Assembly (NCBI GenBank): GCA_003024175.1
Contig: MDYQ01000080.1
Coordinates: forward strand, 1 to 64,000
Direction: 5' to 3'
Origin: Planoprotostelium fungivorum
Taxonomy: Eukaryota > Evosea > Variosea > Cavosteliida > Cavosteliaceae
DNA length: 64,000 nucleotides
The first letter of the stretch is position 1; every line of letters starts with the position of its first letter. Of this stretch, positions 16,904 to 20,959 are shown one piece after another. The notes under the pieces are model-generated. The model saw only the letters and a list, made by a program, of their open reading frames with translations, was not told where the DNA came from and made no database searches. A program made the translations under genes and the position numbers.

Positions 16904-19900
16904 TCACCTTGCTGCGTAAGGACGTAAGAATTCAGCCGGCTGAGAGTGCACGAGTGCAGTTAAATTAGGGAACAATTCTCCTCCCAACTCGAACCCGGCG
17001 TCCGAGACGAAGATCTCGTGCTTCTTCGTGACCAGTTGGTTGTTGTCTCTCGACACGTAGGCCAGAGTGAGGCAGCCCGGTTCAGAAGAAGGAACGAACA
17101 TGAATGTACCGAAGGCGCTCTTTGCTAGGGTCTGGCTGGCCTGTGTGTAATTGGATGTGCGGTGGAACCACCTGAGAGGGTGAGATGCAATAGAAGGTGA
17201 GATACAATAGAAGGTAAGATGCAATAGAAGGTGAGATGCAATAGAAGGTGAGATGCAATAGAAGGTGAGATAAAATAGAAGGTGAGATAAAATAGAAGGT
17301 GAGATACATTAGAAGGTAAGATGCAATATAAGGTGAGATGCAATAGAAGGTGAGATGCAATAGAAGGTGAGATACAATAGAAGGTAAGATACAATAGAGG
17401 GTGAGATACAATAGAAGGTGAGATGCAATAGAAGGTGAGATGCAATAGAAGGTGAGATAAAATAGAAGGTGAGATGCAATAGAAGGTGCTCACGATTCGT
17501 TCTTGTAAGCGAGGATACGTAAATACTCTTCGAGAGTGTCACGCAGGGCCAGACAGCAGAAGACGTATTGTTCCTACCCCCTTCAGAATCCTCGAAATCT
17601 CAGAGGAAATTCTCACCTTGTTCTGTACCAGGGCGATCCTGTCCATTCTCATTCGAATGAGAGTCTCTTGTATGTGAAACGTCGTGTCAAACGAAGCACA
17701 TAGCAGGGCCTTCAGCTTCGTGATGATGCTGTGAACCACACAGAAGACACCCGACCGACCGATACCAGCACTGCAGTGCACCACGGTGGGCCCGTTACTG
17801 ACGTTCAACCTGAGGAATTTCAGCTTGAAACGGTCGCATTCGAATGCACCTGTCTGCCTCGTCAATGATGGTGCGGAACCCCTTCGTATCTTTCGGCAGG
17901 CCTTGATCGGGCCAGGCGACGTACTGCAAGTGAGATACAAATCTCGTCTCTCCCGTCTGATCTTCCGTCAATTTTCCGGCGAGGGGAGGGGACTCACGTG
18001 GCGGAGTTTGATGGAAAATTGGCGGAGGATGAGCTGGGTTTCGTCTTGGATGGTCAACAGAGTCACCACGAAGAAACCGGCGTCCATGTCGTTGTGATCC
18101 TGAGGGAAGTACGGAAACACTTTACTCTGACATCCATCAGTCTCCCCATCCAAATTCTCATCATGATGTGAAGTCTAGTCATGATGTGATCTCCCATCGT
18201 GATGTGACGTCTCATCATGATGTGATCTCCCATCGTGATGTGACGTCTCGTCATGATGTGATCTCCCATCGTGATGACAAGTCGAGTGTCTCACCTTTCC
18301 ATCTTCGACAAAGGTGGATAGCATAACGATGATGGAGACATTCTGCTCCCACACCATTCTCCAAAAGTCAGGGGTGGTGCTGTCGAGGGGACCCTGTGTG
18401 ACGATGTAGGCGCGGTCACCGCGCAGATCTGCGCCGACGTAATTCGCATTTACGTAATCCGAGGACTCTACGCCCTCGAGAGACAAGAGGTGCACGCGAG
18501 TGCGTTCGACTGAGGGAAATGAATAAAATAGAATAAAATAGTGTAAGGTGATAAGAAGGAAAAAAATCGTGGAAAATGGAGTCATATCAATAAAATAGAA
18601 TCAAATCGAGGGAAAGAGAGGAAGAGAAATAAAATAGAATAAAATGGTGGAAGGTGAGAGACTCACGGGGGAGGATGTTACGGTAACGATTCTTTGGTAA
18701 ATTGATCTTTGTGAGAGAGCTGCTGAAATCTCCATTCAGAATCTGATCGGTCGAACTCGCCTCTAATTCCTGGAAATCCATCAACTACAACCCGCCATTT
18801 CTCCCCACCTCATATTCCGACTCAAACTGTCCCATGTTCCTCTCCAATCTGTCTTTAAACTGTGACACGGCCAGCCAATCGGGATCAGGCGTAGACAGAG
18901 TGGTCGTAGTCGGCAGCTGTTGGGGCGATTCGCTCTCCTCTGCGTCCTCTTTACCTAAATCTGCGACGGGCATGAACTGATGTTTCCTCTGAGTCGAGGG
19001 TGAAGCGGTCATCGGTGGAGAATTGGCCACGTTGAGTACGTCTGAACGTGTCAGCTGCATGTCACGTGTCACGTGTTCACCTTTCGGCAAGGGTGGGACG
19101 TATGATTCGTCGTAAGACAAGATGAGGGCGATCACGTTCTCGCTGGGACTCTCTCTGGCGAGATCTACGGGAGTTTTCCCCACGTTATTCGCTATTCTAG
19201 GATCCGGGCGACACTGCAGCACCTGCTCGAGTCAGTACCAGTCACCCACCGTCTACATCGTTGTAGACGGACGCGATCTATTCTCACCAGCTCGATCGTC
19301 TGGGTCAATTTGATACCCTTCGCCACGGCAATGTGAAGTATGGTATCCCCTGTGCGACTGTTTTGCATGTTTACCAGCTCAGGTTCCTCTTTGATGTGCT
19401 GGATGAGAAGATTGAGAACGATCTGGTCCCTCGCTGTCTTGTTCGTTCTGAACGCATAGTGAAGCGCTGTCTCTCCCGTGAAGTCACGGATGCTGACGTT
19501 GATGTTCTTCACGAGCAAGAGTTCGACGAGATCCAGGCTGGACACTGCGATCGCCATGTGTAGGGCGGTACGGCCCGAATCCAGCTCGGTCTGCCACAAT
19601 TTCAGCCTCTCTATCTTCAACGATAGAACTCACGGCGTTGATGTTTGCTCCCTTTTCGAGGAGAAGAGCAACCACGGCGTATTGCGTGGCAAAGACAGCC
19701 ATGTGAAGGGGAGAGCGTGGTCCGTTCATCTTGTTGGGATTCGCTCTGTACTTTTCCAGCATGAGCGTCGCTGCTTCCGGAAAATTGCATTGTAAGGCGA
19801 GGCCGAGCGGGGAGAGAGTCTGATGGGTTCAGATGAGGTGGAGAGATGGTCTTCACCTGAGTGGTGTCGCTGGGACCGTCCGGAGAGACTCCGGCTTGAA

Positions 19901-20959
19901 GGAAGAGCTCGACGGCTTCCATGGATCGTGATGTGATGGATGTGATGAGACACTTGTGATACAGGGGGGTGAATTCTCTGCCGGGGAATTGGGTGGAACG
20001 GATGTTGAAAAAGTGTTTGATCTGAAAGACGTGAGATGATGCATCGAATGGGTATGTGATGATTGGATGATACGATGGAGGTCGATGGAGAGGGAATCGT
20101 GTGGTACCTTCTCCACGTTGGATTCTCTCGCCGCTTCGAGAAGTTGTGTCTCCACAGGAACTGATGACACGTCAGATGGGACGTGGACATGGCAAAGACG
20201 AAGATGTCTCCGGGAAGATGCGATGATGCAGAAGGGATCTCACTCTGGTCGTTGAATGCGACCGCCGAGGTGGGTCTCGATGGCTCAGCACGAAAAACCT
20301 ACGATGCAAATGTCAACACATGAGAAGGCGGGAAAAGAAGAAAAGAGGGAGAGTGTCCTCTCATCAGTCCATTTCACCTGTCCCGGAGGAGTGTAATGAT
20401 CTCTGTCCGATCTTTCTTCGGTAGCCTGCTGTTGGGCTCTCGTGGCTCGGGCTTTGGTTCTCTGGGTCTCTATCTCTTGGATGTTCAACAGATGATCGAC
20501 GGCCTTCTCTACGTCTCCATTATACTCTACGAGTGCATTTGAAATGTGGAGTTGATCGAGTCCGCTGAACATGTTCTGGAGTTGCTCTTGTTTGGCTGAG
20601 GGAGATGATGAGCTTTTGGATGAAGGAATGCACCAAATGGAGCAGCCGTCGTCGGTGGGCTCACCAGCATACTCTCTGCGCTTCTCTTGTTCCTTTCTGA
20701 GCAACTGTAGAGGGTGTCAGAACATCACGCTGCTCTCGGAATGATACACAACACATTGGACGTGTTAAAACTAAACTAACCTGTTCTTTATCGTCCACGG
20801 TTCCTCTATTATCCTGTTTGATTCGTTTGAGTCCTTCATCTTTCTTTCTATTTGATATATCGTCCAGATCATAAGTTCCATCATCACCTGCGTCTGTGGA
20901 GAAGGAGGGTTATTGGTCGAATTTACTGTGACCCTCCCTCTACCGAATAGACCCTTCAT
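16904..20959 (-). CDS. CUE-ankyrin-tyrosine phosphatase-SH2 multidomain protein
   Basis: One frame runs through about 14 introns. The start MKGLF is spliced to [20 protein letters not shown]. Domains in order: a CUE/UBA-like helix bundle ([31 protein letters not shown]); about six ankyrin repeats ([72 protein letters not shown]); an S/T/P linker; a classical PTP domain with KNRYRNILP, the WPD loop AWPDQGLP, the P-loop [11 protein letters not shown] and the Q-loop VQNKEQY; and an SH2 domain ([12 protein letters not shown]...HEIFVSD...FPNLTALVH). All PTP catalytic residues (Asp, Cys, Arg, Gln) are present, so it should be active. SH2 residues at the usual FLVR arginine read FMFVPSS, so phosphotyrosine binding may be altered. 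I know of no protein with this order. Confidence 0.85.
17179..17484 (+). repeat. 17-nt tandem array, 18 copies, inside the intron before the SH2 exon
   Basis: Consensus on the + strand is GGTGAGATGCAATAGAA, with changes at a few positions (GGTAAG, ATAC, ATAAA). It fills nearly all of a 323-nt intron (17171-17493) of the minus-strand PTP-SH2 gene. Each unit starts with the local 5' splice-site consensus but on the antisense strand. Because 17 is not a multiple of three, it opens all three minus frames. Confidence 0.95.
18160..18276 (-). repeat. 36-nt tandem repeat in a PTP intron
   Basis: About three copies of a 36-nt unit (core CATGATGTGATCTCCC) in the intron between the two halves of the PTP domain. 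Sense strand is rich in C, A and T. Confidence 0.85.
19252..19267. other. Intronic hairpin word TCTACATCGTTGTAGA
   Basis: With flanking bases it makes a 9-bp perfect stem (CCGTCTACA/TGTAGACGG) around TCGT. It lies in the intron between two ankyrin-coding exons of the PTP-SH2 gene. Confidence 0.85.

Follow-up and report, generated by a model that had tools for sequence, protein, structure and literature searches.

We found that a gene in Planoprotostelium fungivorum probably encodes one protein in which a classical protein tyrosine phosphatase (PTP) domain is joined to a targeting front end, consisting of a CUE domain and ankyrin repeats, and to a degenerate SH2 tail. The gene lies on the minus strand between positions 16904 and 20959 of the window, the 64,000-nucleotide stretch of DNA that was analysed, which belongs to a 36.9 Mb assembly of 471 contigs. 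The gene model, the domain identities, the intact catalytic motifs and the loss of an arginine from the SH2 domain are all supported by computation. If the exons make one protein, it is a PTP-SH2 fusion in an order different from that of the animal SHPs, and its SH2 domain has lost the arginine that grips phosphotyrosine while the other aligned SH2 domains of the same genome keep it. Such a protein would offer a natural test of an SH2 domain as a purely structural or docking part of a phosphatase, and would also allow one to ask whether binding to ubiquitin is coupled directly to the dephosphorylation of tyrosines.

The first-pass annotation had read the exons in one frame from 16904 to 20959, and our gene model, built from splice signals and reading frames, agrees with it. 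From an ATG at 20959 to a stop codon ending at 16904, 18 exons are spliced into one uninterrupted frame of 872 residues. The introns have GT-AG boundaries in 17 of 17 cases, range from 37 to 322 nt and are consistent in phase. From the frame and the splice signals, we infer that all exons are part of a single transcript. Exon 1 (20944-20959) supplies the start codon and about five residues; its donor is ambiguous between 20952 and 20943, both of which preserve the frame, and 20943 was used in the model. Introns 3 and 10 are multiples of three and free of stop codons, and so may be exonic. Because a single stop-free frame (18785-19231) holds both the final ankyrin unit and the PTP N-terminal helix, the join between the ankyrin and PTP regions hardly depends on splicing.

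Exons 2 and 3 (20893-20781 and 20704-20665, spanning 20665-20893) encode a charged N-terminal region that runs into the CUE domain, and exon 4 (20378-20595) encodes the CUE domain (model residues 58-94) followed by a long helix. A CUE-like domain had been annotated here, and Pfam detected it at 25.9 bits in the 872-residue model and at 28.8 bits in a piece of it, relative to a cut-off of 21.1. A single-sequence AF2 model of the CUE exon was confident (pLDDT 86.7) and contained three helices. When this model was used as a Foldseek query against the PDB, the top-ranked match was the CUE domain of Tollip, with a probability of 0.99 but an E-value of 0.5 and with UBA domains level with it; the CUE domain of CUEDC1 was ranked seventh (E = 0.86), and no Foldseek match was found at E ≤ 0.001. 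The window domain resembles those of Tollip and CUEDC1, neither of which is a phosphatase, in its three-helix CUE fold. Ubiquitin-binding CUE domains carry MFP and di-leucine motifs. The sequence here differs in having MFS at the place of MFP, and the LL is present. The safe reading is that the front domain is a predicted ubiquitin binder of the CUE/UBA type. Exons 5 and 6 (20298-20244 and 20160-20108, spanning 20108-20298) encode a linker and the beginning of the ankyrin region, which continues through exons 7-10 (20021-19857, 19819-19634, 19590-19288 and 19222-19081, spanning 19081-20021). Ank_2 scored 92.1 bits in the full model, above the Pfam cut-off. Ankyrin repeats were correctly called, although we counted seven to eight ankyrin-like units by eye instead of the earlier estimate of about six.

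Exon 11 (18809-19041) encodes a linker and the PTP N-terminal helix, and exons 12-17 (18769-18667, 18509-18295, 18126-17998, 17956-17850, 17809-17617 and 17573-17494, spanning 17494-18769) encode the classical catalytic domain. Y_phosphatase scored 228.2 bits over residues 531-767 of the full model, covering positions 1-232 of the 234 in the Pfam profile. The phosphotyrosine loop KNRY, the WPD loop, HCX5R and the Q-loop are all intact, at model residues 534, 672, 704 and 753 respectively, and were aligned to solved PTPs, which bears out the annotation of a complete classical PTP domain with its Q-loop. In a phmmer search of the PDB, the best single-domain E-value was 4.4e-50, to PTPRS (2fh7), with 2.9e-101 for the whole two-domain chain; a 302-residue PTP piece matched the two PTPRS domains over residues 21-286 and 40-288. 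With all four motifs in place, the PTP domain should be catalytically active.

Exon 18 (16904-17171) encodes the SH2-like domain and ends in the stop codon. The tail begins about 17 residues beyond the point where the Pfam match to the PTP domain ends, and of the four domains it gave the weakest match. Alone, the exon scored 23.2 bits in Pfam, against a cut-off of 21; when the final part of the PTP domain was included, the score was 22.2 bits. In hhalign, the exon reached 96.1%. SH2 was absent from the Pfam scan of the full 872-residue model even at E ≤ 10, and a search of the whole genome for the SH2 family, which gave 79 matches, did not pick up the exon. The domain search that had been proposed for the spliced product thus recovered CUE, Ank_2 and Y_phosphatase and did not report SH2. 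When a profile was built from 16 of the genome's other SH2 domains, with the window sequence excluded, it gave the exon 28.2 bits, whereas none of 20,000 shuffles exceeded 10.1; within the full-length protein, it gave the tail 21.7 bits. When open frames from the window and from 16 other PTP loci were compared, the inclusion threshold was passed by the SH2 exon alone (E = 1.6e-6, with 0.72 for the runner-up). Sequence searches with the exon itself gave a best E-value of only 0.64 by phmmer against the PDB and, in its own genome, four other places at E ≤ 1 (best E = 0.001, 31% identity). The single-sequence model of the tail was weak (pLDDT 64.6) and had no Foldseek match at E ≤ 0.001; an unrelated PilZ domain was ranked first and the SH2 domain of BLK second (E = 0.65), with the JAK2 SH2 and SHP2 chains at lower ranks amid many unrelated structures. 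From these profile comparisons, we conclude that the tail is most plausibly a diverged SH2 domain. A chance origin of the domains was rejected on the strength of the PTP, ankyrin and CUE profiles together with the SH2 shuffle control, and the gene model and domain matches support the order CUE-ankyrin-PTP-SH2 as annotated.

The FLVR-like segment had been noted to lack its usual basic residue, and indeed the place of the FLVR arginine (betaB5) is occupied by Val in the window SH2, whereas Arg is present in 16 of 16 aligned SH2 domains from the same genome. These 16 were taken from the nearly full-length, stop-free sequences among the 79 matches. The alphaA2 position also appears to be non-basic in our alignment to Src. 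Because Val replaces the FLVR arginine, the tail is probably not a phosphotyrosine reader, which counts against the earlier proposal that it binds neighbouring phosphotyrosines. In a review, human RIN2, TYK2 and SH2D5 are described as having SH2 domains without the FLVR arginine, and JAK SH2 domains as binding receptor tails without a need for phosphotyrosine (PMC7530234). Both precedents favour a phosphate-independent role for the window tail. In TYK2, the FLVR arginine is His (PMC7530234). The likeness to TYK2 and the JAKs concerns the SH2 domain; theirs is part of the receptor-binding unit of a kinase, and the one here is the tail of a phosphatase. The same review describes the C-terminal SH2 domain of p120RasGAP, where phosphotyrosine is coordinated by basic residues at betaD4 and betaD6 rather than by the FLVR arginine. 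By that precedent, the window SH2 could have a non-canonical basic site, perhaps formed by the lysines of VTKKHEI, a segment with two lysines and one histidine near betaD and thus in the matching region, and the tail could still bind phosphotyrosine and return the phosphatase to substrates with multiple phosphotyrosines. We consider this unlikely, since both the FLVR arginine and, presumably, a basic alphaA2 residue are gone, and since the alignments disagree around VTKKHEI, leaving the placement of its lysines uncertain. A structural or phosphate-independent tail is more likely than a phosphotyrosine reader.

Whether the tail is always attached depends on intron 17 (17172-17493), the longest intron at 322 nt, which is in phase 2 and consists mostly of a 17-bp minisatellite. 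Its retention would stop the PTP frame at once after KNES. The gene might accordingly give two products, a PTP ending at KNES and a longer SH2 form, with the tail perhaps a minor or decaying appendage; the low rank of the SH2 match among the four domains would fit such an appendage. The donor (GTGAGC) and acceptor (CTCTCAG) of intron 17 nevertheless look normal and their phases match, and the SH2 pattern is far enough above its shuffles that the tail is not random sequence, so we regard two products as possible though on the unlikely side. It could also be that neighbouring genes were joined by eye, with the CUE exons or the SH2 exon belonging to a separate gene, given that no single exon covers either CUE and ankyrin or PTP and SH2. 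Against this, the junctions preserve the frame, introns 4-6 between the CUE and ankyrin regions are only 79, 83 and 86 nt long, and intron 4 has no in-frame stop after the CUE exon. Moreover, the 46 codons that precede the SH2 exon in its frame contain no ATG, and the exon is joined to the PTP exon in phase 2; an independent SH2 gene is therefore unlikely. Taken together, wrongly joined genes are very unlikely, and we favor one gene encoding the front end, the phosphatase and the SH2-like tail.

In the most likely model for the one-gene protein, the CUE domain would bind ubiquitin weakly and the ankyrin repeats would bind a partner protein, so that the two jointly recruit the phosphatase to complexes that are ubiquitinated or scaffolded. 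There, the PTP domain would strip phosphate from tyrosines. The SH2-like tail could pack on the phosphatase in a structural or regulatory role or could dock a non-phosphorylated peptide, and most likely would not read phosphotyrosine. Like the single transcript, ubiquitin binding, catalysis and what the tail does are inferred from the sequence. A more elaborate version of this model is that the protein is a coincidence phosphatase, in which the CUE domain and ankyrin repeats sense a ubiquitinated scaffold and the SH2 domain lacking its FLVR arginine, which a short linker keeps close to the catalytic domain, gates the active site independently of phosphate. We hold this version to be quite unlikely. 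If it were true, ubiquitin state would be directly linked to tyrosine dephosphorylation, and we know of no earlier case in which a pseudo-SH2 tail regulates a classical PTP in cis.

Among known systems, SHP1 and SHP2 (PTPN6 and PTPN11) likewise combine a classical PTP domain and SH2 in one chain; our PTP piece aligned to PTPN6 structures over residues 44-291 of 302. In SHP1 and SHP2, a pair of SH2 domains precedes the PTP domain, and CUE and ankyrin repeats are lacking, whereas the protein here has one SH2 domain, after the PTP domain and without the FLVR arginine. Pfam found no SH2 domain before the PTP domain in the full model, and the single SH2 exon is located after it. The first-pass annotation had stated that SH2 after PTP was not a known order, which overlooks the tensins, whose SH2 domain is near the C-terminus. 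Tensins have an N-terminal PTP-like domain and an SH2 domain in the same chain, with the PTP-like domain of tensin1 lacking the catalytic cysteine (PMC3507883). In part, they anticipate the placing of a PTP domain ahead of SH2. They differ in that the inactive PTP-like domain of tensin1 belongs to a PTEN-like PTP-C2 unit, accompanied by an SH2-PTB pair, while the window PTP domain is classical with its motifs intact, and no C2 or PTB domain was found in the full model by Pfam at E ≤ 10. Large SH2 and PTP sets like those of this genome are described in Acanthamoeba, with 12 PTPs and with 48 SH2 proteins whose domain compositions are unlike those in Monosiga and animals, while about half are shared with Dictyostelium (PMC4053784). 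Such differing compositions mean that unusual combinations are expected in organisms of this kind. The parts of PMC4053784 that were covered contain no CUE-ANK-PTP-SH2 protein, and none was found in the open-licence literature among the matches listed, as judged from titles and the starts of abstracts. Judged against open-licence papers, the protein seems to combine known parts in an unusual way and not to be a new kind of enzyme.

Profile searches of the genome returned at least 79 matches to SH2 exons and, spread across 19 contigs, at least 43 to PTP exons. Of 1388 first-look kinase candidates, 134 were scored, and at least 68 matched at E ≤ 1e-20. An 18S primer pattern located one rRNA gene. 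A genome-wide search with the protein as query found no second copy of the architecture, only matches to the PTP part and to the ankyrin part. The long PTP matches, on contigs C12, C13 and C302, were 33-37% identical, and short pieces reached 59%. We also considered whether PTP and SH2 are commonly fused in this genome and rejected the idea, because no SH2 open frame was found near any of the 16 other PTP loci scanned (best E = 0.81). These loci were stretches of 9.7-9.9 kb from the 18 other PTP contigs, with C13 and C417 left out because their scores equalled those of C12 and C463; open frames of at least 25 residues were scanned, so an SH2 domain split into shorter exons could escape. In prokaryotic genomes, 13 pattern matches were obtained for the PTP-SH2 part, and none was a relative by tblastn. 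Two observations suggest a lineage that is probably amoebozoan. On contig C4, a PK_Tyr_Ser-Thr family kinase has an SH2 exon behind it on the same strand, and kinase followed by SH2 is the order of the Dictyostelium SHK kinases. A U12 snRNA gene is also located within the window; 265 minor introns are reported for the amoebozoan Protostelium aurantium (PMC10639083).

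All 17 modelled introns of the phosphatase gene have GT-AG borders, and two of them contain minisatellites. The array in intron 17, which lies between the last PTP exon and the SH2 exon, consists of 18.5 copies of a 17-bp unit (window 17175-17488), and that in intron 13 consists of 3.6 copies of a 36-bp unit (18156-18287).

The next gene upstream, also on the minus strand (about 21780-23650, an extent judged by eye), encodes a protein phosphatase 2C; the two open stretches that we checked scored 31.1 and 64.1 bits. Therefore, two unrelated phosphatase genes lie side by side. A gene for U12 minor spliceosomal RNA is located close by on the upstream side of the CUE-ankyrin-PTP-SH2 gene (21400-21552, minus strand; 67.9 bits against a gathering threshold of 53). 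On the downstream side, the apparent product of a minus-strand gene with an extent also judged by eye (about 15650-16535) is a small protein that looks secreted. One part of it resembled the mannose-6-phosphate receptor repeat and ATG27, with scores below threshold.

Rfam also identified a U5 spliceosomal RNA gene (9455-9567, minus strand) and a 96-base tRNA (1732-1827, minus strand). The tRNA was absent from the ARAGORN output, and its gene perhaps contains an intron.

Elsewhere in the genome, the scores of PTP loci were identical between contigs C12 and C13, and likewise between C417 and C463, which suggests that the paired loci are uncollapsed haplotypes or recent duplicates. In support of an amoebozoan lineage, a kinase on contig C4 has an SH2 exon behind it in the same orientation (G000:C4:9942-11523, stretch L063), an order resembling that of the Dictyostelium SHK proteins.
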